Below are positions 1 to 62,464 of a DNA stretch of 64,000 nt, in pieces; position 1 is the first letter of the stretch, and the number at the start of each line of letters is the position of its first letter. The notes below the pieces were generated by a model, which was given only the letters and a program-made list of their open reading frames with translations, was not told where the DNA came from and did no database searches. The stretch is taken from NCBI GenBank assembly GCA_916048095.2, contig OU696593.1, forward strand, positions 2,910,001-2,974,000, given 5' to 3'. This DNA is from Sacculina carcini (lineage: Eukaryota; Arthropoda; Thecostraca; Sacculinidae). A program made the position numbers and the translations under genes.

Positions 1-120
1 GTTTGCGTTTGAAGCCCCTGATAATTGAACCAGCGAACCATGAGCCAGCGCAATTATGTCACCTCATATTCAAGCATACATACACAGACAGACAGATAAT
101 TTCTTCTTTATGTATATACT
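1..120 (+). repeat. Module M, 3' fragment cut by window start
   Basis: The window opens inside an M module, at the stretch reading TTTGAAGCCCCTGATAATTG. It runs through the CAGACAGACAGATAATTTC microsatellite tail to the TA seam at 120. It corresponds to 7165-7284. Confidence 0.9.
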
Positions 121-1030
121 AGCATTAAAACCCGCCCGTTGTGCGGAACAATTCATAAAAATATTGCAAATTAAAAATAAATAAGGCAAACTCATAAAAA
201 CCTGAATCAATTAAAACGTCTAAATTTCATTATTTTAATATTATTTTGACAAAATATTTTCACTCAGCCCGCCTCATATTTAAACCCGGCCGACGTGCGG
301 AATAATTCAGAACTCGAACACCATCCGTTCTGGTTCTTGAAGTCAAATCCATTAGTTTTGTATATGAATTCATTCTACACGGTGAAATTGAACGTTTTAT
401 TGCTGCCCGCGGGACATTTTTATTTCATAAAAATGAGCCATCGCTTCGTTTGCGTTTGAAGCCCCTGATCATTGAACCAGCGAACCATGAACCAGCGCAA
501 TTATGTCACCTCATATTCAAGCATACATACACAGACAGACAGATAATTTCTTCTTTATGTATATATATATAGCATTAAAACCGCATTAAAACCCGCCCGT
601 TGTGCGGAACAATTCATAAAAATATTGCAAATTAAAAATAAATAAGGCAAACTCATGAAGACCTTAATCAATTAAAAAGTCTAAATTTCATTATTTTTAA
701 TTTTATTTTGACAAAATATTTTCACTCAACCCGCCTCATATTTAAACCCGCCCGACGTGAGGAAAAATTCAGAACTCGAACACCATCCGTTCTGGTTCTT
801 GAAGTCAAATCCATTAGTTTTGTATATGAATTCATTCTATACGGTGAAATTGAACGTTTTATTGCTGCCCGCGGGACATTTTTATTTCATAAAAATGAGC
901 CATCTCCTCGTTTGCGTTTGAAGCCCCTGATAATTGAACCAGCGAACCATGAGCCAGCGCAATTATGTCACCTCATATTCAAGCATACATACACAGACAG
1001 ACAGATAATTTCTTCTTTATGTATATATAT
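121..1030 (+). repeat. Two module M units (450 + 460 bp)
   Basis: The units are 121-570 and 571-1030. Each starts AGCATTAAAACC with a CCCGCCCGTTGTGCGG box, has a second box about 150 bp in (CCCGGCCGACGTGCGG in the first, CCCGCCCGACGTGAGG in the second), then a CCCGCGGGACATTTTTATT stretch, and ends in a CAGACAGACAGATAATTTC then TA tail. The two are distinct subtypes, alpha then beta, together forming a 909-910 bp dimer. An open frame at 708-1073 begins with TTG and has no coding support. Confidence 0.88.
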
Positions 1031-1430
1031 AGCATTAAAACCCGCCCGTTGTGCGGAGCAATTCATAACATGAAATTCATATTCAATTCATAAAAAATAT
1101 GGAAAAATAAAAATGAAATAGGGTACACTCATAAAAATATTAATCAATTGAAAATTATAAGTTTAATTATTTTTATTTCGACACAATATTTCCCCTCAGT
1201 CCGCCTGAGTCATTTTTAAACCCGCCCGTCGTGCTGAATAATTCAGAACTCGAACACGATCCGTTCTGCATCTTGAAGTCAAATCCATTGGTTTTGTGTA
1301 TGGATTAATTCTACAGGGTAAATTGAACGTTCTATTGTCTATAGTTGCTGCCCGCGGAACATTTTTATTTAAAAAAACACCTTTTTTTAAATGAACCATT
1401 TGAAAAAATGATCTAAAACACTTTTTTAAA
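1031..1430 (+). repeat. Module N, leading into core C1
   Basis: It is a diverged relative of the first ~330 bp of M: head box with GTTGTGCGGAGC, interior box GTCGTGCTGAATAATTCAG, then CCCGCGGAACATTTTTATT and an A/T homopolymer stretch before the next box. It lacks the CAGA microsatellite tail of M and passes straight into the core head box at 1431. Confidence 0.85.
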
Positions 1431-1970
1431 CCCACCCGTCGTGCGGAACAATTCATACAATAAAATTCATATCAAATCCATAAAATATAATGAATACAAA
1501 TTGAAAAGCAAAAAATGTAACCTATAAATATCTTAACCAATAGAAAAGTCTAAATGTGAATATTTTTGTTCTTATTTTGACAAATATTATCCCTCAACCC
1601 GCCTGATATATAAATCTGCCCGTCGTGTGGTATAATTCAGAACACAAACACGAAACAAACAATGAAAGATGATGAAATCTTTTCATCAGACTGTTTCCAA
1701 ACTATATTTATTACTTAACATCATTCCCCAATATCATTTGCTTAAGTACTATTTCACTTTTACCGCTATAATATTTATTGTTAAAATTTATATATTTTCC
1801 GCTATCATTAAAACCCAATATAACCTGAGTCAAACCTACCCAACCCAACCCAACCATTCAATCTTGACCGCTCTCAGCCTAGTCTGAGGTGATTTAACTT
1901 ATTAGTTTGTGATCACAAAATATACTGATGCGATCATAATTTGTAATCAGAAGACTGAGATTATCTACCC

Positions 1971-2000
1971 CAGGGGTCCCAAACACGCGGCCCACCAATA
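1971..2000 (+). mobile_element. hAT-transposon-like terminal fragment
   Basis: The stretch begins CAGGGGTCCCAAACACGCGG and continues CCCACC. This closely resembles the termini of many hAT (Charlie/ZBED-type) DNA transposons, which start CAGGGGT(C/G) followed by CCCAA and a CGCGGCCC motif. No transposase and no clear opposite end are nearby, so it looks like a remnant captured before the core amplified. The same fragment starts at 9135, 14549, 18310, 22005, 27416, 35705, 38932, 42429, 47055, 50297, 53794, 57950 and 61863. The resemblance rests on recalled family consensus, not a search. Confidence 0.5.
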
Positions 2001-2890
2001 CTTTTCTCTCAACCCGCCAATATAGTATCGGGACCAAACTGTAAGGTAGCTAAATTCACATTTGTTGCATAATGCGATATAATTTTACACCATTATCATA
2101 TTATCTCATAATTCCCGGTTAATGCTTCCACTAATGCATCATATTCATACAGTTGTTATTTTTTGGATTACATCGATAATGCAGCCCTTGATATTACAGC
2201 CGATATTATATTATGCAATCTATATTCTGCTACGTATTATTCCTAATACATATATCATCAGATCGCAAAATATATTTAAAGGTTCACATCATTCTCCAAA
2301 ATCATTTGCTTAAGAGCTATTCTACTTTTATCGCTAGAATATTTACTGCTAGCAAAATATCATATACCTCGCTATCATTTAAACCCACTCTTTATAGATA
2401 CATTTAATTCGCCCGTCGTGCGGAACAGTTCATAAAATATAATTAATATTCAATTCATAAAAAAATTAGTGCAAATTGAAAAAGAAAAACAAACCCACAG
2501 GAAAGTTATAGCTAATCTAAAAGTCTAAATGTGAAATTTATGTTTCAATTTAGAAAACATGTTTTTCCACAACACTATCAAAACAATGCAACCTTCTGTC
2601 ATCTCTATAATTCCAGGTTAATGCTTTCGCTAAAACAGCATAAGTTGGCATTACATGATATTGCAACCCATATCCTTATGCAACTTATGCTTATGCAACT
2701 TGAAATTAAACCAATTAAATTACACAGTTAAATTCAGTAGTTTACTTTGTTCCCAATAGCATTTTACCCGCCCGTCGTGCGGAACGTTATTGAGGACAAT
2801 AAAGCCTTTATATTCAGTAGAGTGTAGCATTAATTAAACTGTACGCAATAAAACCACACCATCCATGCTTGGAGATAATATGATGCATTC

Positions 2891-4600
2891 TTAATTGTGA
2901 TTGGGCTTCAGTGAAATTTAATCGGTGTATATTCCTGTGTAATCGCAAGTGCGCATAATAGCTGTCAAATTGGCAATATGTCCTTTTGACTTTACACCGC
3001 CGTAACTTCCTTCAGATACCCTTTGGAAAATTACAAATTATACCGTATTGTAGAAGAAAAGATTTCTAGAACGATGGTATAATTTATTTTTATGTGTAAC
3101 AAATAGTTACTGAGAAATAGTAGAAAAATGAATTAATTTTAGTCGCCCGGTGTTCAAGTGTAATTTTGGATGTATTTGAGAATTTTGCCAATTTTACACG
3201 TTTTTTGTATCATTTGTGGGTATAAATTATAGCTTATCTTGTAGAACACAAAATTCTCTACACAGTAGTATATTCCTGTGTAATCGCAAGTGCGTAAATT
3301 GTGATTGGACTTCAGTGAAATTAAATCAGTGTATATTCCTGTGTAATCGCAAGTGCGCATAATAGCTGTCAAATTGGCAACATGACATTTTGACTTTACA
3401 CCGGCGTAACTTCCTTCAGATACCCTTTGGAAAATTAATAATCATACCGTACTGTAGGAAACAAAATTTCTAGCACGATGGTATAATTAATTTTAATGTA
3501 TGACAAATAGTTACTGATTAATGGGTATAAAAATGAATAAATTGTAGTCACCCGGTGTTCAAGTGTAATTTTGGATGTATTTGAGAATTTCGCCAATTTT
3601 ACACGTTTTTTGTATCATTTGTGGGTATAAATTATAGCTTATCTTGTAGAACACAAAATTATCTACACAGTAGTATATTCCTGTGTAATCGCAAGTGCGC
3701 ATAATAGCTGTCAAATTGGCAATATGTCCTTTTGACTTTACACCGCCGTCACTTCCTTCAGATACATTTTGGAAAATTAAGAATTATACCGCATTTTAAA
3801 AAATACAATTTCCAGCACGATGATATAATTTATTTTAATGTGTGACAAATAGTTCCTGAGAAATAGGTAGAAAAATGAATTAATTTAGGCGCCCGGTGAT
3901 CAAGTGTAATTTTGGATGAATTTGACAATTTTGCCAATTTTACACATTTTTTGTATCATTTGTGGGTATAAATTATAACTTTTCTTGTAGAACACAAAAT
4001 TATCTACACAATAGCATAATTTTTATAGCTGTACCATTGCTGGTTTATGAGGAATAGATAGGGGAATATTTACCAAAACATTCACGGTTTCCAGTGCTAA
4101 TTTTGCATTTTTGACTTTGTCATTTTGACTTCACACCGCCGTAACTTTTTTTCAATACACTTTGGAAAATTAAAAATTATACCGTGTTGTAGCAAACAAA
4201 ATTCCCAGCATGATGGTATTATTTATTTAGTTGTGTGATAATTAGTTTTTGATACATAGAGAAAAAAGTATAGAAAATCGGACGCGTGGAGTATAAATAT
4301 AATTTTGAATATAGATTGAAATTTTGTCATGTTTACATCTTTTATGTTCTATTTTCGGATATGAATTATAACCTATCTTGTAGAACAGAAAATTCTCTAC
4401 ACAGTGGTATAATCTGTTTGGCTGTACCATTTCTGGTTTATGAGGAGTAGATGGCAGAGCATTGACCACAATTTTCGCATTTTTCAGGGTTCATTTTGTC
4501 TTTTCACCGCCATAACTTTTTTTGATTTCATTTTTGAAATTTAAAATTTAATCTAAAGTGTAGACAAGAAAATTTCCAACGTGATGGTATAAATTGTTAG
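2891..4600 (+). repeat. Internal minisatellite of C1, 1,710-bp class
   Basis: Degenerate tandem repeats of about 342 bp. The marker ATTCCTGTGTAATCGCAAG occurs at 2931, 3272, 3335 and 3677 (spacings 341, 63, 342). Two further, more diverged units follow, recognised by CACCGCCGTAACTT-like and CTTGTAGAACA-like motifs near 4130 and 4500. The 63-bp step repeats the leading TTAATTGTGATTGG segment. Confidence 0.9.
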
Positions 4601-4728
4601 CGGGTAGGCTGAGTGGTGGCCGAATAATAGCTGATAGAAAATGGACCAAGGAGGGTCGAACACACACACACACACACACACACAGACAGACAGACACACA
4701 GAGGATCTCTTTTATATATATATAGACT

Positions 4729-5900
4729 AGCATTAAAACCCGCCCGTTGTGCGGAGGAATTCATAAAATGGAATTAATATTCATAATAATTCATATTCAT
4801 AAGAATATTCCAAATTAAAAAAGAAAATGAAAACTCATCAGTGTCTTACTCAATAGAAAAGTCCAAGTGTTAATATTTTTATTTTTGTTTTGACATAATA
4901 TTTTCCCTCAACCCGTCTCATATATAAACCAACTCATTGTGCGGAATAATTCAGAACACAAACACGTAACAAACAATGAAAATCCTAGCATGTAAACCCG
5001 CCCGTCGTGCGAAACAGTTCATACTATTAAATTTGTATTCAATTCATGAGAGAAAAGGAATATGAATTAAAAAAGAGTTGAGTAAACCCATACAAAAGTC
5101 TAAATTTCTATATTTTCATATTTATTTTCACAAAATAGTTTGCCTAAACCGCCTCATATTTATACATGCCCGTCGTGCTGAATAATTCAGAACTCAGACA
5201 CGAAACAATGAAAAATGACTACACTTTTTCATCATAATGTTTCCAAAATATTTTAATAACTTAATATCACCGTCTAGCATTGAAACCCGCCAGTTGTGCG
5301 GAGCAATTCATAAGATGAAATTCATATTTAATTCATAAACATATTGCAAATTGAAAAAGAAAACATATATACTCATTAAAATCTTACTCAATTGAAAAGT
5401 CTAAATTCAATTATATTTTTTGACAACATATTTTCCTTCAGCCCGTCTCATATTTAAACCCGCCCGTCGTGCTGAACAATTTATAAAATAAAATGCATAT
5501 TCAATCCATAAAATAAAATGCATATTCAATCCATAAAATAAACTGAATACAAATTAAAAAGCAAAACATTTAACATTTTCCCTCGAACAGCCTCATATTT
5601 GAACCCGCCCGTCGTGCGGAACAATTAAGCCCCAACACCAATGGTTCTTTATATATAAACCAACTAATGACAACTAACTAACTAATATTCAAATGGTTCT
5701 TTATTATATAATAATGGTTTTTTATTTAATGGTTCTATATGGTACAATAATTCAGTAGTTTACTTTGTTCCCAGTAGCATTTTACCCGCCCGTCGTGCGG
5801 AACAATTAAGCCCCTGAACTATACCATTGAACCCGCGCAATTATGTCACCTCATATTCAAGCATACACACACAGACAGACAGATAATTTCTTCTTTATGT
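4729..5900 (+). repeat. Module P, copy 1 (1,172 bp)
   Basis: P is a run of seven to eight box-headed sub-segments of roughly 80-180 bp. Boxes lie near 4739, 4927, 4997, 5166, 5287, 5459, 5604 and 5786, several partly decayed (for example CTCATTGTGCGG). It holds a 25-bp tandem repeat twice (5488-5537), a low-complexity AATGGTTCTTTAT-rich stretch (5640-5740), and a tail with CACACACAGACAGACAGAT. No coding potential is seen. Confidence 0.87.
5488..5537 (+). repeat. 25-bp minisatellite, two copies
   Basis: A 25-bp unit beginning ATAAAATGCATATTCAATCC is repeated at 5488 and 5513. The same pair sits in the other 1,172-bp P copies. The triplicated P units have three copies each (30976-31050, 32180-32254, 33384-33458). 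Confidence 0.92.
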
Positions 5901-6212
5901 TTAAATATACCATTGAACCTGCGCAATTATGTCACCTCATATTCAAGCATACATACACAGACAGACAGATAATTTCTTCTTTATGTATATATATGGCATT
6001 AATACCCGCCCGTTGTGCGGAGCAATTCATACAATCAAGCAAATCATGAACCATTTGAAAAAATGAACTAAAAACACTTTTTTTAAACCCACCCGTCGTG
6101 CGGAACAATTCATACAATAAAATTCATATCAAATCCATAAAATATAATGAATACAAATTGAAAAGCAAAAAATGTAAGCTATAAATATCTTGACCAATAG
6201 AAAAGTCCAAAT
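5901..6212 (+). repeat. Module Q, copy 1
   Basis: A second CAGACAGACAGATAATTTC tail (about 5957-5995) is followed by a GGCATTAATACCCGCCCG head, a short segment with ATGAACCATTTGAAAAAATG, a CCCACCCGTCGTGCGG box, and the beginning of a core-like head (TACAATAAAATTCATATC). It breaks off at 6212 and joins an M fragment. It appears to be a scar of a deletion between a core head and an M interior. Confidence 0.82.
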
Positions 6213-6375
6213 GCCCGCGTGACATTTTTATTTCATAAAAATGAGCCATAGCTTCGTTTGCGTTTGAAGCCCCTGGTCATTGAACCAGCGAACCATGAAC
6301 CAGCGCAATTATGTCACCTCATATTCAAGCATACATACACAGACAGACAGATAATTTCTTCTTTATGTATATACT
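6213..6375 (+). repeat. Module M, 3' fragment
   Basis: It starts abruptly at GCCCGCGTGACATTTTTATT, inside M, and runs to the M tail. It is fused to Q in every copy (also 13375, 26242, 34138 and 45488), so the fusion happened once before amplification. Confidence 0.85.
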
Positions 6376-8194
6376 AGCATTAAAACCCGCCCGTTGTGCG
6401 GAACAATTCATAAAAATATTGCAAATTAAAAATAAATAAGGCAAACTCATAAAAACCTGAATCAATTAAAACGTCTAAATTTCATTATTTTAATATTATT
6501 TTGACAAAATATTTTCACTCAGCCCGCCTCATATTTAAACCCGGCCGACGTGCGGAATAATTCAGAACTCGAACACCATCCGTTCTGGTTCTTGAAGTCA
6601 AATCCATTAGTTTTGTATATGAATTCATTCTACACGGTGAAATTGAACGTTTTATTGCTGCCCGCGGGACATTTTTATTTCATAAAAATGAGCCATCGCT
6701 TCGTTTGCGTTTGAAGCCCCTGATCATTGAACCAGCGAACCATGAACCAGCGCAATTATGTCACCTCATATTCAAGCATACATACACAGACAGACAGATA
6801 ATTTCTTCTTTATGTATATATATATAGCATTAAAACCGCATTAAAACCCGCCCGTTGTGCGGAACAATTCATAAAAATATTGCAAATTAAAAATATATAA
6901 GGCAAACTCATGAAGACCTTAATCAATTAAAAAGTCTAAATTTCATTATTTTTAATTTTATTTTGACAAAATATTTTCACTCAACCCGCCTCATATTTAA
7001 ACCCGCCCGACGTGAGGAAAAATTCAGAACTCGAACACCATCCGTTCTGGTTCTTGAAGTCAAATCCATTAGTTTTGTATATGAATTCATTCTATACGGT
7101 GAAATTGAACGTTTTATTGCTGCCCGCGGGACATTTTTATTTCATAAAAATGAGCCATCTCCTCGTTTGCGTTTGAAGCCCCTGATAATTGAACCAGCGA
7201 ACCATGAGCCAGCGCAATTATGTCACCTCATATTCAAGCATACATACACAGACAGACAGATAATTTCTTCTTTATGTATATACTAGCATTAAAACCCGCC
7301 CGTTGTGCGGAACAATTCATAAAAATATTGCAAATTAAAAATAAATAAGGCAAACTCATAAAAACCTGAATCAATTAAAACGTCTAAATTTCATTATTTT
7401 AATATTATTTTGACAAAATATTTTCACTCAGCCCGCCTCATATTTAAACCCGGCCGACGTGCGGAATAATTCAGAACTCGAACACCATCCGTTCTGGTTC
7501 TTGAAGTCAAATCCATTAGTTTTGTATATGAATTCATTCTACACGGTGAAATTGAACGTTTTATTGCTGCCCGCGGGACATTTTTATTTCATAAAAATGA
7601 GCCATCGCTTCGTTTGCGTTTGAAGCCCCTGATCATTGAACCAGCGAACCATGAACCAGCGCAATTATGTCACCTCATATTCAAGCATACATACACAGAC
7701 AGACAGATAATTTCTTCTTTATGTATATATATATAGCATTAAAACCGCATTAAAACCCGCCCGTTGTGCGGAACAATTCATAAAAATATTGCAAATTAAA
7801 AATAAATAAGGCAAACTCATGAAGACCTTAATCAATTAAAAAGTCTAAATTTCATTATTTTTAATTTTATTTTGACAAAATATTTTCACTCAACCCGCCT
7901 CATATTTAAACCCGCCCGACGTGAGGAAAAATTCAGAACTCGAACACCATCCGTTCTGGTTCTTGAAGTCAAATCCATTAGTTTTGTATATGAATTCATT
8001 CTATACGGTGAAATTGAACGTTTTATTGCTGCCCGCGGGACATTTTTATTTCATAAAAATGAGCCATCTCCTCGTTTGCGTTTGAAGCCCCTGATAATTG
8101 AACCAGCGAACCATGAGCCAGCGCAATTATGTCACCTCATATTCAAGCATACATACACAGACAGACAGATAATTTCTTCTTTATGTATATATAT
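6376..8194 (+). repeat. Four module M units forming a 909-bp dimer twice
   Basis: Units are 6376-6825 (alpha), 6826-7284 (beta), 7285-7734 (alpha) and 7735-8194 (beta). The alpha-beta dimer is duplicated with period 909; the one substitution I noted is T at 6896 versus A at 7805. The second dimer equals 121-1030. Beta units start with a doubled head (AGCATTAAAACCGCATTAAAACC). Confidence 0.9.
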
Positions 8195-8594
8195 AGCATT
8201 AAAACCCGCCCGTTGTGCGGAGCAATTCATAACATGAAATTCATATTCAATTCATAAAAAATATGGAAAAATAAAAATGAAATAGGGTACACTCATAAAA
8301 ATATTAATCAATTGAAAATTATAAGTTTAATTATTTTTATTTCGACACAATATTTCCCCTCAGTCCGCCTGAGTCATTTTTAAACCCGCCCGTCGTGCTG
8401 AATAATTCAGAACTCGAACACGATCCGTTCTGCATCTTGAAGTCAAATCCATTGGTTTTGTGTATGGATTAATTCTACAGGGTAAATTGAACGTTCTATT
8501 GTCTATAGTTGCTGCCCGCGGAACATTTTTATTTAAAAAAACACCTTTTTTTAAATGAACCATTTGAAAAAATGATCTAAAACACTTTTTTAAA
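8195..8594 (+). repeat. Module N, leading into core C2
   Basis: It matches 1031-1430 over its whole length: a GTTGTGCGGAGC head box and a GTCGTGCTGAATAATTCAG interior box, with no CAGA tail before the core head. Confidence 0.88.
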
Positions 8595-11500
8595 CCCACC
8601 CGTCGTGCGGAACAATTCATACAATAAAATTCATATCAAATCCATAAAATATAATGAATACAAATTGAAAAGCAAAAAATGTAACCTATAAATATCTTAA
8701 CCAATAGAAAAGTCTAAATGTGAATATTTTTGTTCTTATTTTGACAAATATTATCCCTCAACCCGCCTGATATATAAATCTGCCCGTCGTGTGGTATAAT
8801 TCAGAACACAAACACGAAACAAACAATGAAAGATGATGAAATCTTTTCATCAGACTGTTTCCAAACTATATTTATTACTTAACATCATTCCCCAATATCA
8901 TTTGCTTAAGTACTATTTCACTTTTACCGCTATAATATTTATTGTTAAAATTTATATATTTTCCGCTATCATTAAAACCCAATATAACCTGAGTCAAACC
9001 TACCCAACCCAACCCAACCATTCAATCTTGACCGCTCTCAGCCTAGTCTGAGGTGATTTAACTTATTAGTTTGTGATCACAAAATATACTGATGCGATCA
9101 TAATTTGTAATCAGAAGACTGAGATTATCTACCCCAGGGGTCCCAAACACGCGGCCCACCAATACTTTTCTCTCAACCCGCCAATATAGTATCGGGACCA
9201 AACTGTAAGGTAGCTAAATTCACATTTGTTGCATAATGCGATATAATTTTACACCATTATCATATTATCTCATAATTCCCGGTTAATGCTTCCACTAATG
9301 CATCATATTCATACAGTTGTTATTTTTTGGATTACATCGATAATGCAGCCCTTGATATTACAGCCGATATTATATTATGCAATCTATATTCTGCTACGTA
9401 TTATTCCTAATACATATATCATCAGATCGCAAAATATATTTAAAGGTTCACATCATTCTCCAAAATCATTTGCTTAAGAGCTATTCTACTTTTATCGCTA
9501 GAATATTTACTGCTAGCAAAATATCATATACCTCGCTATCATTTAAACCCACTCTTTATAGATACATTTAATTCGCCCGTCGTGCGGAACAGTTCATAAA
9601 ATATAATTAATATTCAATTCATAAAAAAATTAGTGCAAATTGAAAAAGAAAAACAAACCCACAGGAAAGTTATAGCTAATCTAAAAGTCTAAATGTGAAA
9701 TTTATGTTTCAATTTAGAAAACATGTTTTTCCACAACACTATCAAAACAATGCAACCTTCTGTCATCTCTATAATTCCAGGTTAATGCTTTCGCTAAAAC
9801 AGCATAAGTTGGCATTACATGATATTGCAACCCATATCCTTATGCAACTTATGCTTATGCAACTTGAAATTAAACCAATTAAATTACACAGTTAAATTCA
9901 GTAGTTTACTTTGTTCCCAATAGCATTTTACCCGCCCGTCGTGCGGAACGTTATTGAGGACAATAAAGCCTTTATATTCAGTAGAGTGTAGCATTAATTA
10001 AACTGTACGCAATAAAACCACACCATCCATGCTTGGAGATAATATGATGCATTCTTAATTGTGATTGGGCTTCAGTGAAATTTAATCGGTGTATATTCCT
10101 GTGTAATCGCAAGTGCGCATAATAGCTGTCAAATTGGCAATATGTCCTTTTGACTTTACACCGCCGTAACTTCCTTCAGATACCCTTTGGAAAATTACAA
10201 ATTATACCGTATTGTAGAAGAAAAGATTTCTAGAACGATGGTATAATTTATTTTTATGTGTAACAAATAGTTACTGAGAAATAGTAGAAAAATGAATTAA
10301 TTTTAGTCGCCCGGTGTTCAAGTGTAATTTTGGATGTATTTGAGAATTTTGCCAATTTTACACGTTTTTTGTATCATTTGTGGGTATAAATTATAGCTTA
10401 TCTTGTAGAACACAAAATTCTCTACACAGTAGTATATTCCTGTGTAATCGCAAGTGCGTAAATTGTGATTGGACTTCAGTGAAATTAAATCAGTGTATAT
10501 TCCTGTGTAATCGCAAGTGCGCATAATAGCTGTCAAATTGGCAACATGACATTTTGACTTTACACCGGCGTAACTTCCTTCAGATACCCTTTGGAAAATT
10601 AATAATCATACCGTACTGTAGGAAACAAAATTTCTAGCACGATGGTATAATTAATTTTAATGTATGACAAATAGTTACTGATTAATGGGTATAAAAATGA
10701 ATAAATTGTAGTCACCCGGTGTTCAAGTGTAATTTTGGATGTATTTGAGAATTTCGCCAATTTTACACGTTTTTTGTATCATTTGTGGGTATAAATTATA
10801 GCTTATCTTGTAGAACACAAAATTATCTACACAGTAGTATATTCCTGTGTAATCGCAAGTGCGCATAATAGCTGTCAAATTGGCAATATGTCCTTTTGAC
10901 TTTACACCGCCGTCACTTCCTTCAGATACATTTTGGAAAATTAAGAATTATACCGCATTTTAAAAAATACAATTTCCAGCACGATGATATAATTTATTTT
11001 AATGTGTGACAAATAGTTCCTGAGAAATAGGTAGAAAAATGAATTAATTTAGGCGCCCGGTGATCAAGTGTAATTTTGGATGAATTTGACAATTTTGCCA
11101 ATTTTACACATTTTTTGTATCATTTGTGGGTATAAATTATAACTTTTCTTGTAGAACACAAAATTATCTACACAATAGCATAATTTTTATAGCTGTACCA
11201 TTGCTGGTTTATGAGGAATAGATAGGGGAATATTTACCAAAACATTCACGGTTTCCAGTGCTAATTTTGCATTTTTGACTTTGTCATTTTGACTTCACAC
11301 CGCCGTAACTTTTTTTCAATACACTTTGGAAAATTAAAAATTATACCGTGTTGTAGCAAACAAAATTCCCAGCATGATGGTATTATTTATTTAGTTGTGT
11401 GATAATTAGTTTTTGATACATAGAGAAAAAAGTATAGAAAATCGGACGCGTGGAGTATAAATATAATTTTGAATATAGATTGAAATTTTGTCATGTTTAC

Positions 11501-11887
11501 ATCTTTTATGTTCTATTTTCGGATATGAATTATAACCTATCTTGTAGAACAGAAAATTCTCTACACAGTGGTATAATCTGTTTGGCTGTACCATTTCTGG
11601 TTTATGAGGAGTAGATGGCAGAGCATTGACCACAATTTTCGCATTTTTCAGGGTTCATTTTGTCTTTTCACCGCCATAACTTTTTTTGATTTCATTTTTG
11701 AAATTTAAAATTTAATCTAAAGTGTAGACAAGAAAATTTCCAACGTGATGGTATAAATTGTTAGCGGGTAGGCTGAGTGGTGGCCGAATAATAGCTGATA
11801 GAAAATGGACCAAGGAGGGTCGAACACACACACACACACACACACACAGACAGACAGACACACAGAGGATCTCTTTTATATATATAG
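8595..11887 (+). repeat. Core unit C2 (A lineage, 3,293 bp)
   Basis: A copy of C1 offset by 7,164 bp. It differs in the length of the TA tail; I saw no other change. hAT-like end at 9135; CA/CAGA tract at about 11824-11865. It is the source-type of C5. Confidence 0.93.
10055..11764 (+). repeat. Internal minisatellite of C2, 1,710-bp class
   Basis: Same unit pattern as C1, including the 63-bp extra step at 10436-10500. Confidence 0.9.
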
Positions 11888-11890
11888 ACT

Positions 11891-13062
11891 AGCATTAAAA
11901 CCCGCCCGTTGTGCGGAGGAATTCATAAAATGGAATTAATATTCATAATAATTCATATTCATAAGAATATTCCAAATTAAAAAAGAAAATGAAAACTCAT
12001 CAGTGTCTTACTCAATAGAAAAGTCCAAGTGTTAATATTTTTATTTTTGTTTTGACATAATATTTTCCCTCAACCCGTCTCATATATAAACCAACTCATT
12101 GTGCGGAATAATTCAGAACACAAACACGTAACAAACAATGAAAATCCTAGCATGTAAACCCGCCCGTCGTGCGAAACAGTTCATACTATTAAATTTGTAT
12201 TCAATTCATGAGAGAAAAGGAATATGAATTAAAAAAGAGTTGAGTAAACCCATACAAAAGTCTAAATTTCTATATTTTCATATTTATTTTCACAAAATAG
12301 TTTGCCTAAACCGCCTCATATTTATACATGCCCGTCGTGCTGAATAATTCAGAACTCAGACACGAAACAATGAAAAATGACTACACTTTTTCATCATAAT
12401 GTTTCCAAAATATTTTAATAACTTAATATCACCGTCTAGCATTGAAACCCGCCAGTTGTGCGGAGCAATTCATAAGATGAAATTCATATTTAATTCATAA
12501 ACATATTGCAAATTGAAAAAGAAAACATATATACTCATTAAAATCTTACTCAATTGAAAAGTCTAAATTCAATTATATTTTTTGACAACATATTTTCCTT
12601 CAGCCCGTCTCATATTTAAACCCGCCCGTCGTGCTGAACAATTTATAAAATAAAATGCATATTCAATCCATAAAATAAAATGCATATTCAATCCATAAAA
12701 TAAACTGAATACAAATTAAAAAGCAAAACATTTAACATTTTCCCTCGAACAGCCTCATATTTGAACCCGCCCGTCGTGCGGAACAATTAAGCCCCAACAC
12801 CAATGGTTCTTTATATATAAACCAACTAATGACAACTAACTAACTAATATTCAAATGGTTCTTTATTATATAATAATGGTTTTTTATTTAATGGTTCTAT
12901 ATGGTACAATAATTCAGTAGTTTACTTTGTTCCCAGTAGCATTTTACCCGCCCGTCGTGCGGAACAATTAAGCCCCTGAACTATACCATTGAACCCGCGC
13001 AATTATGTCACCTCATATTCAAGCATACACACACAGACAGACAGATAATTTCTTCTTTATGT
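11891..13062 (+). repeat. Module P, copy 2
   Basis: Equal to 4729-5900 in length and arrangement, including two copies of the 25-bp repeat. It begins directly after the C2 tail (TATAGACTAGCATT). Confidence 0.9.
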
Positions 13063-13374
13063 TTAAATATACCATTGAACCTGCGCAATTATGTCACCTC
13101 ATATTCAAGCATACATACACAGACAGACAGATAATTTCTTCTTTATGTATATATATGGCATTAATACCCGCCCGTTGTGCGGAGCAATTCATACAATCAA
13201 GCAAATCATGAACCATTTGAAAAAATGAACTAAAAACACTTTTTTTAAACCCACCCGTCGTGCGGAACAATTCATACAATAAAATTCATATCAAATCCAT
13301 AAAATATAATGAATACAAATTGAAAAGCAAAAAATGTAAGCTATAAATATCTTGACCAATAGAAAAGTCCAAAT
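13063..13374 (+). repeat. Module Q, copy 2
   Basis: Equal to 5901-6212, ending at the same internal fusion with an M fragment. Confidence 0.85.
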
Positions 13375-13998
13375 GCCCGCGTGACATTTTTATTTCATAA
13401 AAATGAGCCATAGCTTCGTTTGCGTTTGAAGCCCCTGGTCATTGAACCAGCGAACCATGAACCAGCGCAATTATGTCACCTCATATTCAAGCATACATAC
13501 ACAGACAGACAGATAATTTCTTCTTTATGTATATATATAGCATTAAAACCGCATTAAAACCCGCCCGTTGTGCGGAACAATTCATAAAAATATTGCAAAT
13601 TAAAAATAAATAAGGCAAACTCATGAAGACCTTAATTAATTAAAAAGTCTAAATTTCATTATTTTTAATTTTATTTTGACAAAATATTTTCACTCAGCCC
13701 GCCTCATATTTAAACCCGCCCGACGTGAGGAATAATTCAGAACTCGAACACCATCCGTTCTGGTTCTTGAAGTCAAATCCATTAGTTTTGTATATGAATT
13801 CATTCTATACGGTGAAATTGAACGTTTTATTGCTGCCCGCGGGACATTTTTATTTCATAAAAATGAGCCATCGCTTCGTTTGCGTTTCAAGCCCCTGATC
13901 ATTGAACCAGCGAACCATGAACCAGCGCAATTATGTCACCTCATATTCAAGCATACATACACAGACAGACAGATAATTTCTTCTTTATGTATATATAT
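13375..13998 (+). repeat. M fragment (13375-13538) plus M unit (13539-13998)
   Basis: The fragment repeats 6213-6375. The full unit is a third M subtype, beta-prime: AATTAATTAAAAAG where beta has AATCAATTAAAAAG, CGACGTGAGGAATAATTCAG, and GCGTTTCAAGCCCC rather than GTTTGAAGCCCC. It ends in the TA seam that starts C3. Confidence 0.87.
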
Positions 13999-14008
13999 AG
14001 CATTAAAA

Positions 14009-17295: not shown

Positions 17296-17299
17296 ATAT

Positions 17300-17759: not shown

Positions 17760-17769
17760 AGCATTAAAA

Positions 17770-21056: not shown

Positions 21057-21064
21057 ATATATAT

Positions 21065-24754: not shown

Positions 24755-24757
24755 ACT

Positions 24758-26865: not shown

Positions 26866-26875
26866 AGCATTAAAA

Positions 26876-38377: not shown

Positions 38378-38391
38378 ATATAGCATTAAAA
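38378..38391. repeat. Direct core-to-core seam C7/C8
   Basis: Only 14 bases, ATATAGCATTAAAA, separate the C7 tail from the C8 head box. No M, N, P or Q module intervenes. The same arrangement recurs at 49743-49756. Confidence 0.9.
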
Positions 38392-41270: not shown

Positions 41271-41274
41271 ATAT

Positions 41275-49500: not shown

Positions 49501-49742
49501 TTTTTCAGGGTTCATTTTGTCTTTTCACCGCTATAACTTTTTTTGATTTCATTTTTGAAATTTAAAATTTAATCTAAAGTGTAGAAAAGAAAATTTCCAA
49601 CGTGATGGTATAAATTGTTAGCGGGTAGGCTGAGTGGTGGCCGAATAATAGCTGATAGAAAATGGACCAAGGAGGGTCGAACACACACACAGACACACAC
49701 ACACACACACAGACACACAGAGGATCTCTTTTATATATATAG
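46515..49742 (+). repeat. Core unit C10 (A lineage, 3,228 bp)
   Basis: A twin of C7 that retains the 15-bp ATGCTTATGCAACTT repeat near 47770. hAT-like end at 47055; CA/CAGA tract at about 49682-49720. Confidence 0.92.
47975..49621 (+). repeat. Internal minisatellite of C10, 1,647-bp class
   Basis: Same as C7, without the 63-bp step. Confidence 0.88.
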
Positions 49743-49756
49743 ATATAGCATTAAAA
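49743..49756. repeat. Direct core-to-core seam C10/C11
   Basis: A 14-base junction, copied from the C7/C8 seam in the 11.36 kb duplication. Confidence 0.9.
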
Positions 49757-52635
49757 CCCGCCCGTTGTGCGGAGCAATTCATACAATAAAATTCATATCA
49801 AATCCATAAAATATAATGAATACAAATTGAAAACCAAAAAATGTAACCTATAAATATCTTAACCAATATAAAAGTCTGAATTTGAATATTTTTGTTCTTA
49901 TTTTGACAAATATTATCCCTCAACCCGCCTGATATATAAATCTGCCCGTCGTGTGGTATAATTCAGAACACAAACACGAAACAAACAATGAAAGATGATG
50001 AAATCTTTTCATCAGAATGTTTCCAAACTATATTTATTACTTAACATCATTCCCCAATATCATTTGCTTAAGTACTATTTCACTTTTACCGCTATAATAT
50101 TTATTGTTAAAATTTATATATTTTCCGCTATCATTAAAACCCAATATAACCTGAGTCAAACCTACCCAACCCAACCCAACCATCCAATCTTGACCGCTCT
50201 CAGCCTAGTCTGAGGTGATTTAACTTATTAGTTTGTGATCACAAAATATACTGATGCGATCATAATTTGTAATCAGAAGACTGAGATTATCTACCCCAGG
50301 GGTCCCAAACACGCGGCCCACCAATACTTTTCTCTCAACCCGCCAATATAGTATCGGGACCAAACTTTAAGGTAGCTAAATTCACATTTGTTGCATAATG
50401 CGATATAATTTTACACCATTATCATATTATCTCATAATTCCCGGTTAATGCTTCCACTAATGCATCATATTCATACAGTTGTTATTTTTTGGATTACATC
50501 GATAATGCAGCCCTTGATATTACAGCCGATATTATATTATGCATTCTATATTCTGCTACGTATTATTCCTAATACATATATCATCAGATCGCAAAATATA
50601 TTTAAAGGTTCACATCATTCTCCAAAATCATTTGCTTAAGAGCTATTCTACTTTTATCGCTAGAATATTTACTGCTAGCAAAATATCATATACCTCGCTA
50701 TCATTTAAACCCACTCTTTATAGATACATTTAATTCGCCCGTCGTGCGGAACAGTTCATAAAATATAATTAATATTCAATTAATAAAAAAATTAGTGCAA
50801 ATTGAAAAAGAAAAACAAACCCACAGGAAAGTTATAGCTAATCTAAAAGTCTAAATGTGAAATTTATGTTTCAATTTAGAAAACATGTTTTTCCACAACA
50901 CTATCAAAACAATGCAACCTTCTGTCATCTCTATAATTCCAGGTTAATGCTTCCGCTAAAACAGCATAAGTTGGCATTACATGATATTGCAACCCATATC
51001 CTTATGCAACTTATGCTTATGCAACTTGAAATTAAAACAATTAAATTACACAGTTAAATTCAGTAGTTTACTTTGTTCCCAATAGCATTTTACCCGCCCG
51101 TCGTGCGGAACGTTATTGAGGACAATAAAGCCTTTATATTCAGTAGAGTGTAGCATTAATTAAACTGTACGCAATAAAACCACACCATCCATGCTTGGAG
51201 ATAATATGATGCATTCTTAATTGTGATTGGGCTTCAGTGAAATTTAATCGGTGTATATTCCTGTGTAATCGCAAGTGCGCATAATAGCTGTCAAATTGGC
51301 AATATGTCCTTTTGACTTTACACCGCCGTAACTTCCTTCAGATACCCTTTGGAAAATTACAAGTTATACCGTATTGTAGAAAACAAAATTTCTAGCACGA
51401 TGGTATAATTAATTTTAATGTATGACAAATAGTTCCTGAGAAATGGGTATAAAAATGAATAAATTGTAGTCACCCGGTGTTCAAGTGTAATTTTGGATGT
51501 ATTTGAGAATTTTGCCAATTTTACACGTTTTTTGTATCATTTGTGGGTATAAATTATACATTTTCTTGTAGAACACAAAATTCTCTACACAGTAGTATAT
51601 TCCTGTGTAATCGCAAGTGCGCATAATAGCTGTCAAATTGGCAATATGTCCATTTGACTTTACACCGCCGTAACTTCCTTCAGATACACTTTGGAAAATT
51701 AAGAATTATACCGCATTGTAGAAAACAAACTTTCCAGCACAATGGTATAATTTATTTTTATGTGTAACAAATAGTTCTTGAGAAATAGGTAAAAAAATGA
51801 ATTAATTTTAGTCGCACGGTGTTCAAGTGTAATTTTGGATGTATTTGAGAATTTTTCGAATTTTACACGTTTTTTGTATCATTTGTGGGTATAAATTATA
51901 GCGTTTCTTGTAGAACACAAAATTTTCTACACAATAGTATAATTTTTATAACTGTAACTCTGCTGGTTTAAGAGGAATAGATAGCGGAATATTGACCAAA
52001 ATATTCGCGTTTTTTAGTGCCTTTTTGACTTTGTCATTTTGACTTCACACCGCCGTAACTTTTTCTTAATACGCTCTGGAAAATTAAAATTTATACCGTG
52101 CTGTAGAAAACAAAATTCCCAGCATGATGGTAATATTTATTTAGATGTGTGATGTTTAGTTGCTGAGAAATAGAGAAAAAAGTCCAGAAAATCGGACGCG
52201 TCGAGCTTAAATATAATTTTGAATGTAGACTGAAATTTTGTCATTTTTACATATTTTATATTTAATTTTTGGATATTAATTTTAGCCTATCTTGTAGAAC
52301 AGAAAATTCTCTACACAGTGGTATAATCTGTTTGGCTGTACCATTTCTGGTTTATGAGGAGTAGATGGCAGAGCATTGACCACAATTTTCGCATTTTTCA
52401 GGGTTCATTTTGTCTTTTCACCGCTATAACTTTTTTTGATTTCATTTTTGAAATTTAAAATTTAATCTAAAGTGTAGAAAAGAAAATTTCCAACGTGATG
52501 GTATAAATTGTTAGCGGGTAGGCTGAGTGGTGGCCGAATAATAGCTGATAGAAAATGGACCAAGGAGGGTCGAACACACACACAGACACACACACACACA
52601 CACAGACACACAGAGGATCTCTTTTATATATATAG
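49757..52635 (+). repeat. Core unit C11 (B lineage, short form, 2,879 bp)
   Basis: A twin of C8. hAT-like end at 50297; CA/CAGA tract at about 52574-52613. Confidence 0.92.
51217..52514 (+). repeat. Internal minisatellite of C11, 1,298-bp class
   Basis: Same as C8. Confidence 0.88.
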
Positions 52636-52639
52636 ATAT

Positions 52640-53253
52640 AGCATTAAAAACCCGCCCGTTTTGCGGAGCAATTCATAACATGAAATTCATATTCAATTCA
52701 TAAAAAAATATGGAAAAATAAAAATGAAATAGGGTACACTCATAAAAATATTAATCAATTGAAAATTATAAGTTTAATTATTTTTATTTCGACAAAATAT
52801 TTCCCCTCAGTGCGCCTGAGTCATTTTTAAGCCCGCCCGTCGTGCTGAATAATTCAGAACTCGAACACGATCCGTTCTGCATCTTGAAGTCAAATCCATT
52901 GGTTTTGTGCATGGATTAATTCTACAGGGTAAATTTAACGTTCTATGGTCTATAGTTGCTGACCGCGGAGCATTTTTATTATAAAAAAAACCTTTTTTTA
53001 AATGAACCATTTGAAAAAATGAACTAAAAAATGGAAACACTTTTTTTAAACCCGCCCGTCGTGCGGAACAATTCATACAATACAATTCATATTTGAAGTC
53101 AAATCCATTGGTTTTGTGTATGGATTAATTCTACAGGGGAAATTGAACGTTCTATTGTCTATAGTTGCTGCCCGCGGAACATTTTTATTTGTAAAAAAAA
53201 AACTTTTTTTAAATGAACCATTTGAAAAAATGATCTAAAAACACTTTTTTAAA
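52640..53253 (+). repeat. Module N', leading into core C12
   Basis: Same as 41275-41888 except for one base at the end of the A-run near 53201. Confidence 0.88.
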
Positions 53254-56200
53254 CCCACCCGTCGTGCGGAACAATTCATACAATAAAATTCATATCAAAT
53301 CCATAAAATATAATTAATACAAATTGAAAACCAAAAAATGTAACGTATAAATATCTTAACCAATAGAAAAGTCTGAATGTGAATATTTTTGTTCTTATTT
53401 TGACAAATATTATCCCTCAACCCGCCTGATATATAAATCTGCCCGTCGTGTGGTATAATTCAGAACACAAACACGAAACAAACAATGAAAGATGATGAAA
53501 TCTTTTCATCAGAATGTTTCCAAACTATATTTATTACTTATCATCATTCCCCAATATCATTTGCTGAAGTACTATTTCACTTTTACCGCTATAATATTTA
53601 TTGTTAAAATTTATATATTTTCCGCTATCATTAAAACCCAATATAACCTGAGTCAAACCTACCCAACCCAACCCAACCATTCAATCTTGACCGCTCTCAG
53701 CCTAGTCTGAGGTGATTTAACTTATTAGTTTGTGATCACAAAATATACTGATGCGATCATAATTTGTAATCAGAAGACTGAGATTATCTACCCCAGGGGT
53801 CCCAAACACGCGGCCCACCAATACTTTTCTCTCAACCCGCCAATATAGTATCGGGACCAAACTGTAAGGTAGCTAAATTCACATTTGTTGCATAATGCGA
53901 TATAATTTTACACCATTATCATATTATCTCATAATTCCCGGTTAATGCTTCCACTAATGCATCATATTCATACAGTTGTTATTTTTTGGATTACATCGAT
54001 AATGCAGCCCTTGATATTACAGCCGATATTATATTATGCAATCTATATTCTGCTACGTATTATTCCTAATACATATATCATCAGATCGCAAAATATATTT
54101 AAAGGTTCACATCATTCTCCAAAATCATTTGCTTAAGAGCTATTCTACTTTTATCGCTAGAATATTTACTGCTAGCAAAATATCATATACCTCGCTATCA
54201 TTTAAACCCACTCTTTATAGATACATTTAATTCGCCCGTCGTGCGGAACAGTTCATAAAATATAATTAATATTCAATTCATAAAAAAATTAGTGCAAATT
54301 GAAAAAGAAAAACAAACCCACAGGAAAGTTATAGCTAATCTAAAAGTCTAAATGTGAAATTTATGTTTCAATTTAGAAAACATGTTTTTCCACAACACTA
54401 TCAAAACAATGCAACCTTCTGTCATCTCTATAATTCCAGGTTAATGCTTCCGCTAAAACAGCATAAGTTGGCATTACATGATATTGCAACCCATATCCTT
54501 ATGCAACTTATGCTTATGCAACTTGAAATTAAACCAATTAAATTACACAGTTAAATTCAGTAGTTTACTTTGTTCCCAATAGCATTTTACCCGCCCGTCG
54601 TGCGGAACGTTATTGAGGACAATAAAGCCTTTATATTCAGTAGAGTGTAGCATTAATTAAACTGTACGCAATAAAACCACACCATCCATGCTTGGAGATA
54701 ATATGATGCATTCTTAATTGTGATTGGGCTTCAGTGAAATTTAATCGGTGTATATTCCTGTGTAATCGCAAGTGCGCATAATAGCTGTCAAATTGGCAAT
54801 ATGTCCTTTTGACTTTACACCGCCGTAACTTCCTTCAGATACCCTTTGGAAAATTACAAATTATACCGTATTGTAGAAGAAAAGATTTCTAGAACGATGG
54901 TATAATTTATTTTTATGTGTAACAAATAGTTACTGAGAAATAGTAGAAAAATGAATTAATTTTAGTCGCCCTGTGTTCAAGTGTAATTTTGGATGTATTT
55001 GAGAATTTTGCCAATTTTACACGTTTTTTGTATCATTTGTGGGTATAAATTATAGCTTATCTTGTAGAACACAAAATTCTCTACACAGTAGTATATTCCT
55101 GTGTAATCGCAAGTGCGTAAATTGTGATTGGACTTCAGTGAAATTTAATCAGTGTATATTCATGTGTAATCGCAAGTACGCATAATAGCTGTCAAATTGG
55201 CAACATGACATTTTGACTTTACACCGTCGTAACTTCGTTCAGATACACTTTGGAAAATTAATAATTATACCGTACTGTAGGAAACAAAATTTCTAGCACG
55301 ATGGTATAATTAATTTTAATGTATGACAAATAGTTCCTGAGAAATGGGTATAAAAATGAATAAATTGTAGTCACCCGGTGTTCAAGTGTAATTTTGGATG
55401 TATTTGAGAATTTTGCCAATTTTACACGTTTTTTGTATCATTTGTGGGTATAAATTACACCTTTTCTTGTAGAACACAAAATTCTCTACACAGTAGTATA
55501 TTCCTGTGTAATCGCAAGTGCGCATAATAGCTGTCAAATTGGCAATATGTCCTTTTGACTTTACACCGCCGTCACTTCCTTCAGATACACTTTGGAAAAT
55601 TAAGAATTATACCGCATTTAAAAAAATACAATTTCCAGCACGATGATATAATTTATTTTAATGTGTGACAAATAGTTCCTGAGAAATAGGTAGAAAAATG
55701 AATTAATTTAGGCGCCCGGTGATCAAGTGTAATTTTGGATGTATTTGACAATTTTGCCAATTTTACACATTTTTTGTATCATTTGTGGGTATAAATTATA
55801 ACTTTTCTTGTAGAACACAAAATTATCTACACAATAGTATAATTTTTATAGCTGTACCATTGCTGGTTTATGAGGAATAGATAGGGGAATATTTACCAAA
55901 ACATTCACGGTTTCCAGTGCTAATTTTGCATTTTTGACTTTGTCATTTTGACTTCACACCGCCGTAACTTTTTTTCAATACACTTTGGAAAATTAAAAAT
56001 TATACCGTGTTGTAGCAAACAAAATTCCCAGCATGATGGTATTAATTATTTAGTTGTGTGATAATTAGTTTTTGATACATAGAGAAAAAAGTATAGAAAA
56101 TCGGACGCGTGGAGTATAAATATAATTTTGAATATAGATTGAAATTTTGTCATGTTTACATCTTTTATGTTCTATTTTTGGATATGAATTATAACCTATC

Positions 56201-56540
56201 TTGTAGAACAGAAAATTCTCTACACAGTGGTATAATCTGTTTGGCTGTACCATTTCTGGTTTATGAGGAGTAGATGGCAGAGCATTGACCACAATTTTCG
56301 CATTTTTCAGGATTCATTTTGTCTTTTCACCGCTATAACTTTTTTTGATTTCATTTTTGAAATTTAAAATTTAATCTAAAGTGTAGACAAGAAAATTTCC
56401 AACGTGATGGTATAAATTGTTAGCGGGTAGGCTGAGTGGTGGCTGAATAATAGCTGATAGAAAATGGACCAAGGAGGGTCGAACACACACACAGACACAC
56501 ACACACACACACACACAGAGGATCTCTTTTATATATATAG
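53254..56540 (+). repeat. Core unit C12 (C lineage, 3,287 bp)
   Basis: A twin of C9. hAT-like end at 53794; CA tract at about 56483-56520. It ends at the right boundary of the 11.36 kb tandem pair. Confidence 0.92.
54714..56423 (+). repeat. Internal minisatellite of C12, 1,710-bp class
   Basis: Same as C9 apart from AATACAATTTCC for AATAAAATTTCC near 55635. Confidence 0.88.
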
Positions 56541-56544
56541 ATAT

Positions 56545-57004
56545 AGCATTAAAACCGCATTAAAACCCGCCCGTTGTGCGGAACAATTCATAAAAATATT
56601 GCAAATTAAAAATAAATAAGGCAAACTCATGAAGACCTTAATCAATTAAAAAGTCTAAATTTCATTATTTTTAATTTTATTTTGACAAAATATTTTCACT
56701 CAACCCGCCTCATATTTAAACCCGCCCGGCGTGAGGAAAAATTCAGAACTCGAACACCATCCGTTCTGGTTCTTGAAGTCAAATCCATTAGTTTTGTATA
56801 TGAATTCATTCTATACGGTGAAATTGAACGTTTTATTGCTGCCCGCGGGACATTTTTATTTCATAAAAATGAGCCATCGCTTCGTTTGCGTTTGAAGCCC
56901 CTGATAATTGAACCAGCGAACCATGAGCCAGCGCAATTATGTCACCTCATATTCAAGCATACATACACAGACAGACAGATAATTTCTTCTTTATGTATAT
57001 ATAT
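56545..57004 (+). repeat. Module M, beta subtype
   Basis: Like 34302-34761, but with GAAGCCCCTG retained and a private interior box CCCGCCCGGCGTGAGG. Confidence 0.88.
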
Positions 57005-60400: not shown

Positions 60401-60704
60401 CTGTACCATTTCTGGTTTATGAGGAGTAGATGGCAGAGCATTGACCACAATTTTCGCATTTTTCAGGGTTCATTTTGTCTTTTCACCGCTATAACTTTTT
60501 TTGATTTCATTTTTGAAATTTAAAATTTAATCTAAAGTGTAGACAAGAAAATTTCCAACGTGATGGTATAAATTGTTAGCGGGTAGGCTGAGTGGTGGCC
60601 GAATAATAGCTGATAGAAAATGGACCAAGGAGGGTCGAACACACACACAGACACACACACACACACACAGACAGACACACAGAGGATCTCTTTTATATAT
60701 ATAG
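57410..60704 (+). repeat. Core unit C13 (A lineage, 3,295 bp, partly diverged)
   Basis: The 5' half is close to C7/C10, with private changes (CCCAAACCAACCC near 57820, CCCTTGGTATTAC near 58166, AAGTAAAAC near 58462, CCAAGCTTGG near 58845). From about 58950 to 59610 it is clearly more diverged, then returns to the common sequence. hAT-like end at 57950; CA/CAGA tract at about 60640-60682. Confidence 0.9.
58870..60579 (+). repeat. Internal minisatellite of C13, 1,710-bp class with divergent first units
   Basis: The 63-bp step is present. The first two units carry many private changes (for example GATAATTTGAC, TGTTTAGCAAAT, TTCGGCCGGTG). AAAACAAGATTTCTAGCACG is shared with C14 rather than with C1-C12. 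Confidence 0.87.
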
Positions 60705-60708
60705 ATAT

Positions 60709-61322
60709 AGCATTAAAAACCCGCCCGTTTTGCGGAGCAATTCATAACATGAAATTCATATTCAATTCATAAAAAAATATGGAAAAATAAAAATGAAATA
60801 GGGTACACTCATAAAAATATTAATCAATTGAAAATTATAAGTTTAATTATTTTTATTTCGACAAAATATTTCCCCTCAGTGCGCCTGAGTCATTTTTAAG
60901 CCCGCCCGTCGTGCTGAATAATTCAGAACTCGAACACGATCCGTTCTGCATCTTGAAGTCAAATCCATTGGTTTTGTGCATGGATTAATTCTACAGGGTA
61001 AATTTAACGTTCTATGGTCTATAGTTGCTGACCGCGGAGCATTTTTATTATAAAAAAAACCTTTTTTTAAATGAACCATTTGAAAAAATGAACTAAAAAA
61101 TGGAAACACTTTTTTTAAACCCGCCCGTCGTGCGGAACAATTCATACAATACAATTCATATTTGAAGTCAAATCCATTGGTTTTGTGTATGGATTAATTC
61201 TACAGGGGAAATTGAACGTTCTATTGTCTATAGTTGCTGCCCGCGGAACATTTTTATTTGTAAAAAAAAACCTTTTTTTAAATGAACCATTTGAAAAAAT
61301 GATCTAAAAACACTTTTTTAAA
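60709..61322 (+). repeat. Module N', leading into core C14
   Basis: Same as 41275-41888 and 52640-53253. Confidence 0.88.
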
Positions 61323-62464
61323 CCCACCCGTCGTGCGGAACAATTCATACAATAAAATTCATATCAAATCCATAAAATATAATTAATACAAATTGAAAAC
61401 CAAAAAATGTAACGTATAAATATCTTAACCAATAGAAAAGTCTGAATGTGAATATTTTTGTTCTTATTTTGACAAATATTATCCCTCAACCCGCCTGATA
61501 TATAAATCTGCCCGTCGTGTGGTATAATTCAGAACACAAACACGAAACAAACAATGAAAGATGATGAAATCTTTTCATCAGAATGTTTCCAAACTATATT
61601 TATTACTTATCATCATTCCCCAATATCATTTGCTGAAGTACTATTTCACTTTTACCGCTATAATATTTATTGTTAAAATATATATATTTTCCGCTATTAT
61701 CAAAACCCAATATAACCTGAGTCAAACCTACCCAACCCAACCCAACCATTCAATCTTGACCGCTCTCAGCCTAGTCTGAGGTGATTTAACTTATTAGTTT
61801 GTGATCACAAAATATACTGATGCGATCATAATTTGTAATCAGAAGACTGAGATTATCTACCCCAGGGGTCCCAAACACGCGGCCCACCAATACTTTTCTC
61901 TCAACCCGCCAATATAGTATCGGGACCAAACTGTAATGCAGCTAAATTCACATTTGTTGCATAATGCGATATAATGATACACCATTATCATATTATCTCA
62001 TAATTCCCGGTTAATGCTTCCACTAATACATAATATTCATACAGTTGTTATTTTTTGGATTACACCGATATTAAAGCCCTTGATATTACAGCCGATATTA
62101 TATTATGCAATCTATATTCTGCTACGTATTATTCCTAATACATATATCATCAGATCGCAAAATATATTTAAAGGTTCACATCATTCTCCAAAATCATTTG
62201 CTTAAGAGCTATCCTACTTTTATCGCTAGAATATTTACTGCTAGCAAAATATCATATACCTCGCTATCATTTAAACCCACTCTTTATAGATACATTTAAT
62301 TCGCCCGTCGTGCGGAACAGTTTATAAAATATAATTAATATTCAATTCATAAAAAATTAGTGCAAATTGAAAAAGAAAAACAAACCCACAGGAAAGTTTT
62401 AGCTAATATAAAAGTCTAAATGTGAAATTTATGTTTCAATTTAGAAAACATGTTTTTCCACAAC

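Follow-up and report, generated by a model that had tools for sequence, protein, structure and literature searches.

One-way joints between different Helitron-type elements in the genome of Sacculina carcini

Modules and seams of the window

The window analysed here is a stretch of 64,000 nucleotides (C26:2910001-2974000) from the 264-Mb genome of Sacculina carcini, which is assembled in 43 contigs, and consists largely of repeated modules, core, M and Q among them, that meet at recurring seams. Its five open reading frames of at least 120 aa are all repeats of one 121-aa frame. The original prediction held that most modules are joined by one seam motif, and the motif is indeed present at all 18 of the coordinates it named, although the joins there and elsewhere are of four kinds rather than one: a precise CTAG/TC joint (the slash marking the boundary between elements), a core placed after AATGCTATA, a CTAG/TATATAC seam and a fused joint. 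Sorted in this way, the 18 coordinates comprise one CTAG/TC joint (4729), two CTAG/TATATAC seams (121 and 6376), six fused joints of the form AATGCTA(TA)nC (571, 1031, 8195, 13999, 26866 and 34302) and nine of the form AATGCTA(TA)n/TC (17300, 21065, 29758, 38382, 41275, 49747, 52640, 56545 and 60709).

Over the whole window, where every seam reads on the minus strand, direct CTAG/TC joints occur three times, at 4725..4730, where the 3' end of an upstream element is followed by the 5' end of a core, and again at 11887..11892 and 24754..24759. The CTAG/TATATAC seam, in which a 3' end is followed by the M 5' tract without its TC, is found six times (113..122, 6368..6377, 7277..7286 and 30209..30218, then at 31422 and 32626), three of these lying within a local 1.2-kb tandem. 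Fused AATGCTA(TA)nC joints into M number 20, five CCA variants included; in the form CTATATATATAC at 1021..1032 the 3' end of a core is fused to M, with the C of the seam also at 8196, 14000, 17761, 26867, 34763, 46113 and 57006. Finally, nine core joints read CTA(TA)n/TC. Eight are CTATA/TC, including 17295..17301, where the core 5' end lies within the TA tract of the fused seam, 29753..29759 and 38377..38383, with the T of TC also at 41271, 49743, 52636, 56541 and 60705, while the ninth, CTATATATA/TC at 21056..21066, has its core 5' end in a fused-seam tract with more TA. One further core 5' end stands in GGTATA/TC of the Q repeat (45175..45181, T at 45176), and the Q joins (GGTTCAATGGTATA), set apart as exceptions in the original prediction, sit in an 86-bp tandem repeat.

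Much of the repetition is tandem duplication, the repeated blocks of the window sharing 98.6-99.9% identity. Tandem duplications span 1..14229 (1-7038 against 7165-14229, 98.6% identical) and 33783..56550 (33783-45185 against 45133-56550, 99.8%), a further repeat spans 8157..28740 (8157-15872 against 21023-28740, 99.5%), and the 1.2-kb tandem unit at 30133-33826 is 99.9% identical. A full core unit occupies 8195..11888; its 5' TC is at 11888, and at 8196 it runs into M through a fused 3' end. A shortened core at 13999..17296 (compared as 13999-17299 with 8195-11890) differs from it by a 390-bp deletion. In this one aligned pair the break falls inside a shared hairpin motif, TATGAATTG.TCCGCAC, between its internal and its terminal copy. 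The window has been reshaped by tandem duplication and by deletion between internal hairpin motifs, and partner swaps could, judging from the aligned sequences, arise through such hairpin-to-hairpin deletion.

The deletion bears on a proposal already made in the original prediction, that recombination preferring the seam acts there; a site-specific recombinase, or homology of hairpins and TA tracts, would then swap modules. Breakage inside the shared hairpin motif in that pair fits such swapping, as does the 86-bp tandem duplication at TATA, and to this extent the proposal stands. The commonest seam is probably inherited (89 of the 100 listed M starts, see below); isolated copies of the elements end as ordinary Helitron A/T insertions, which seam recombination does not need, and the recombinase itself is putative. 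We regard seam swapping as a very improbable origin of the seams.

Ends of the elements and their assignment to Helitrons

All genome-wide counts given here are exact matches in a single assembly, and listed places are the first 100 for each pattern, mostly on contig C1. The seam motif, the 19-mer TAGCATTAAAACCCGCCCG, has 4,484 exact matches genome-wide, 2,270 on one strand and 2,214 on the other, as against 0 for the same 19-mer read backwards. It is the reverse complement of a 3' terminus, CGGGTTTTAATGCTAG/T, and the element reads on the minus strand. In that reading the 3' terminus is CCGCAC(A/G)ACGGGCGGGTTTTAATGCTAG/T, and the TA-rich tract, which had been taken for the 3' tail of the previous element, proves to be the 5' terminus of the adjoining one, A/TCTATATATATAAAAGAGATCC or more fully A/TCTATATATATAAAAGAGATCCTC. 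A related reading of the CA/TA-rich tract as a LINE- or SINE-type 3' tail was dropped, the reverse strand of isolated copies giving A/TC and CTAG/T. Exactly matched 5' ends in the window, 13 of core and 30 of M, are all on the minus strand, where the plus strand of the window has 0 matches to the core and M 5'-end patterns and to CGGGTTTTAATGCTA.

The flanks of these ends are regular. Genome-wide, 3' ends followed by T (CTAG/T) number 2,700 and those followed by another base 603, in total 3,303; of 86 non-T flanks with letters listed, 73 are within three mismatches of the internal unit ATGGTGATGT and 13 are not. Among the 100 matches to CGGGTTTTAATGCTA listed of 4,755, CTAG is present in 73 and is followed by T in 67 of those 73. 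Core 5' ends stand directly after CTAG in 25 of the 100 matches listed of 1,922; the other 75, which are non-tandem, are preceded by A in 72 cases, and A is the last base in 35 of their 37 distinct flanks. Breakpoints scattered at random through the modules, which would have spoken against a preferred seam, were not seen at these sampled ends (67 of 73 listed CTAG then T, 72 of 75 non-tandem 5' ends after A). In isolated copies that were fetched, both ends abut other DNA.

A 5' TC, a 3' CTAG and insertion between A and T are marks of Helitrons, which are eukaryotic rolling-circle transposons (PMC5876387, PMC4778049). That the modules are Helitrons we regard as very nearly certain, a judgement that applies to Helitron identity alone; we take them to be non-autonomous, and they lie on the minus strand. 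Joining CTATA to TATATACATAAAG would rebuild an unoccupied seam with no target-site duplication, the two halves coming from paralogous copies and not from an allelic empty site. Every seam, on this identification, is the 3' terminus of one Helitron set against the 5' terminus of its neighbour.

The hairpin near the 3' end, a 4-bp stem CCGC/GCGG placed 9 nt before CTAG, is counted as weak since its stem is no better than those of shuffled sequences (z -0.33 to -1.07), and a separate Helitron-like 3' end in locus L045 has a strong hairpin (z -4.78). Helentrons and DINE-1 elements differ from A/T and CTRR in their insertion site and 3' end. That class was considered and rejected for the present elements, whose ends read A/TC ... 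CTAG/T.

Rep domains are present in the genome as 150 matches to PF14214, many of them only pieces, and an open frame at one Rep locus carries motifs of both Rep and helicase, as judged by eye. The ends described here gave no match near Rep domains in loci L009-L020 and L041-L045 (L043 having 1,822 N), and among the listed core 5' ends none lies within 10 kb upstream of Rep at the six Rep places on C1 in the listed stretch, again by eye. An autonomous Helitron with the same termini was not found among the Rep loci read.

Orientation and partners of the joints

Exact direct joints number 384 in the genome in head-to-tail orientation, compared with one site that is head-to-head; at up to three mismatches the head-to-head-like sites rise to 11, and GA/TC is intact at the exact site alone. 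Elements free to insert at any AT dinucleotide would be expected to face either way. If 4,755 elements chose uniformly among AT dinucleotides, at a rate taken from 20 fetched loci, about 0.36 random strikes on core 5' boundaries would be expected, or 0.18 per orientation. The lone head-to-head site is roughly at this chance level, and the head-to-tail excess is roughly three orders of magnitude, with copies and AT-rich target bias still included in it. Chance insertion would bring different Helitrons together with a common orientation far less often than is seen here.

Consecutive core 5' ends among the 100 listed of 1,922 can be sorted by spacing into pairs of the same and of opposite orientation: 0 same and 1 opposite below 2 kb, 25 same and 1 opposite from 2-6 kb, 15 same and 2 opposite from 6-20 kb, 14 same and 12 opposite from 20-100 kb, and 13 same and 16 opposite over 100 kb; a 5' end following the opposite-strand 5' end of a relative occurs in 4 among 100 listed 5' ends. 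Rows of the form CTATA(N0-4)/TC number 239 in the same orientation in the genome, many of which may be copies, against 2 in the opposite one. Where like elements stand head-to-head the joint forms a palindrome, and such joints may disappear through instability, an argument that does not explain the scarcity of opposite CTATA-type seams because the opposite pattern is not palindromic.

One way of obtaining both polarity and precision is for copying of a single element to continue over more than one round, the resulting head-to-tail multimer then being inserted. Such rolling-circle concatemers would on their own account for orientation and precision, CTAG joined to TC is the exact circle junction reported for Helraiser (PMC4778049), and among eight runs of joints with at least two spacings two are constant (4,596 bp; 4,544-4,545 bp). 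In the other six of the eight the spacing is unequal, and concatemers predict like units. The two neighbours at locus L036 measure 3.7 and 0.8 kb; the longer one, its 3' end intact, stands directly before the shorter, whose 3' end has three mismatches, and the better-kept 3' end of the upstream unit is what would be expected had that unit come second. Left and right units are paired many-to-many, with 15 pairs in 19 loci; a single left unit is found beside four right clusters, and a single right cluster beside five left units. We consider concatemers unlikely as the source of the joints.

These pairs come from 420 bases taken at each of 16 single joints (out of the 64 singles among the matches listed), together with L004, L036 and the window. 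At 90% identity the 19 sampled loci sort into 10 left 3' units and 15 distinct pairs; at 95% the pairs number 18. Because there are 15 partner pairs in the 19 loci, joints between unlike elements have probably formed repeatedly, as far as sequence comparison can tell. Mixed partners could alternatively stem from gene conversion or from recombination between elements, and composite copies are not independent. The opposite case, in which all the seams descend from a few founding joints through segmental duplication or unequal crossing-over, draws on the 98.6-99.9% identity of the window blocks and on the likeness of the fused M joint in most listed copies (65 exact and 89 fused-like among 100 listed). 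Among 100 listed CTAG/TC joints, however, there are 77 same-strand 20-kb clusters, of which 64 are single, and at least 15 partner pairs occur in the 19 loci. Duplication thus covers growth of the arrays and the fused seam and not the origin of direct joints; as the sole cause we hold it to be distinctly improbable.

Of the 100 M 5' starts listed of 2,878, 89 are fused-like, 65 with an identical number of TA units, and the remainder are six of the GGTATA kind, three CTAG/TATAC and two pure TA; none of the 100 has an A/TC end of its own. Since no listed M 5' end has its own A/TC, the fused seam is probably one old joint inherited inside a composite element. CTATA plus TATATACATAAAG equals the fused seam letter for letter, and CTATA/TC and CTAG/TATATAC are, from their sequences, the apparent two sides expected of an insertion between A and T inside it. 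Clean nesting is not readable in the window, where nine CTATA/TC stand against six CTAG/TATATAC, three of the six from the 1.2-kb tandem. The suggestion that elements insert into the TA tract is in this way partly supported: these two seam types restore the fused seam, and CTAG/TC lies at the resident 5' boundary.

Landing at resident ends and comparison with known systems

We judge it reasonably probable that the modules are Helitrons that have landed at or in the ends of resident elements. A new Helitron would land at A/T just before a resident TC, or inside the TA-rich seam, so that a chain would extend on the 5' side of the resident. Composites might afterwards spread as units, aided by the weakness of the 3' hairpin and by an internal fused end from which the G is gone, with later expansion of the window by tandem duplication and deletion between internal hairpin motifs. 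The weak hairpin, the want of a Rep gene tied to these ends and the nine against six seam sides are points that weigh against this account, as are palindrome loss, the two of eight runs with constant spacing, mixing by recombination and the non-independence of composite copies.

Models for head-to-tail Helitrons have been of two types, rolling-circle multimers in the bat and a second insertion beside the first in maize, both of them laid out in PMC2267711. The latter, proposed as consecutive insertion for one maize pair, gives unlike units and no orientation. A more specific and more tentative possibility is that Rep nicks the resident 5' end at A/TC, as it would in starting transposition. Were this strand-specific nick to serve as the target nick, the incoming CTAG 3' end could attach to the resident TC only one way round, the resident 5' end acting as a strand-specific landing site from which chains of unlike elements would grow one way by transposition. 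The Rep nick would give both unlike units and orientation; we hold it to be somewhat less likely than not, with concatemers or plain duplication as its chief rivals.

Canonical Helitrons, such as those of maize found with HelitronFinder (PMC2267711) and Helraiser (PMC4778049, PMC5876387), resemble the present elements in 5' TC, 3' CTAG and A/T insertion, and also in the position of the hairpin just before CTAG, high copy number and the presence of Rep-domain genes in the genome. They differ in that the hairpin is weak here and the bodies hold repeated units with hairpin-like motifs. The maize pair and the bat cases likewise have CTAG directly on TC with a G/T junction, the maize pair being of unlike elements; against a single pair in maize and several cases in the bat, there are 384 exact joints here, with orientation and partner counts.

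Tandem Helitrons are already known, and it is scale, polarity and mixed partners that are notable here. In the literature searched, which mostly excluded subscription journals, no orientation counts of CTAG/TC joints were found, and a text search found none of these end sequences in published papers; PMC9674265, PMC13286980 and PMC4683698 had no bearing on the joints. The debate over the head-to-tail origin has so far drawn on very few cases, and 384 joints in one genome, in many partner combinations and with a control for orientation, make the question countable. If the landing model is true, transposon ends are themselves targets, and tandem arrays of mixed elements, in time satellite-like DNA, can start from rolling-circle transposition; if landing is at a Rep nick, Helitrons would be builders of mixed satellite-like arrays.

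Other systems share parts of this pattern. In Fusarium (PMC5148889), self-insertion was proposed to account for the multiple termini and tandem copies of nested and composite Helitrons, on the basis of a few cases; in the present genome a fused internal 3' end recurs in copies numbering thousands. Plant centromeres also have tandem arrays of Helitrons (Xiong 2016, via PMC5876387 and PMC5148889), from which the present arrays differ in their mixed partners and higher-order blocks. Oyster Helentrons with satellite-like repeats (PMC7492417) similarly carry tandem repeats inside rolling-circle elements, while the ends here are of the Helitron type, A/TC ... CTAG/T.

Local duplication and internal 3' ends

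Within the window, a 1.2-kb unit whose end is CTAG|TATATAC, the seam at which a Helitron 3' end meets the 5' tract of an M module without the TC, is repeated in tandem at 30133-33826 in copies that are 99.9% identical; this duplication is local and very recent. Elements also contain internal copies of the 3' end, followed by GATTTTCATTGT or A(C/T)GGTGAT, both in the window (4988, 5277 and their repeats) and genome-wide; these internal copies may be fossil 3' ends.

An orientation exception

Two 5' ends of the core module lie head-to-head in the S. carcini assembly (contig C1, 9255077 and 9255172), with approximately 100 bases between them, an exception to the head-to-tail rule.

Loci around Rep domains

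Fragments of the Rep domain are dense on contig C35, with many falling within ~1.1 Mb (about 3.31-4.46 Mb). At one Rep locus (L009, minus strand), Rep and helicase motifs, as judged by eye, share a single open frame, in which ~10 near-identical 23-residue repeats (RTAAARQNETEQDAEQRRNTNAE), also identified by eye, precede the Rep part. A second (L042) carries a contig-internal run of TTAGG-like repeats, a type of repeat suggestive of an arthropod. A third (L045, about 1140-1182, minus strand) contains a Helitron-like 3' end unlike that of the window, consisting of CCGCAC GAA GTGCGG, 9 nt and CTAG|T, the hairpin of which is strong (z -4.78).
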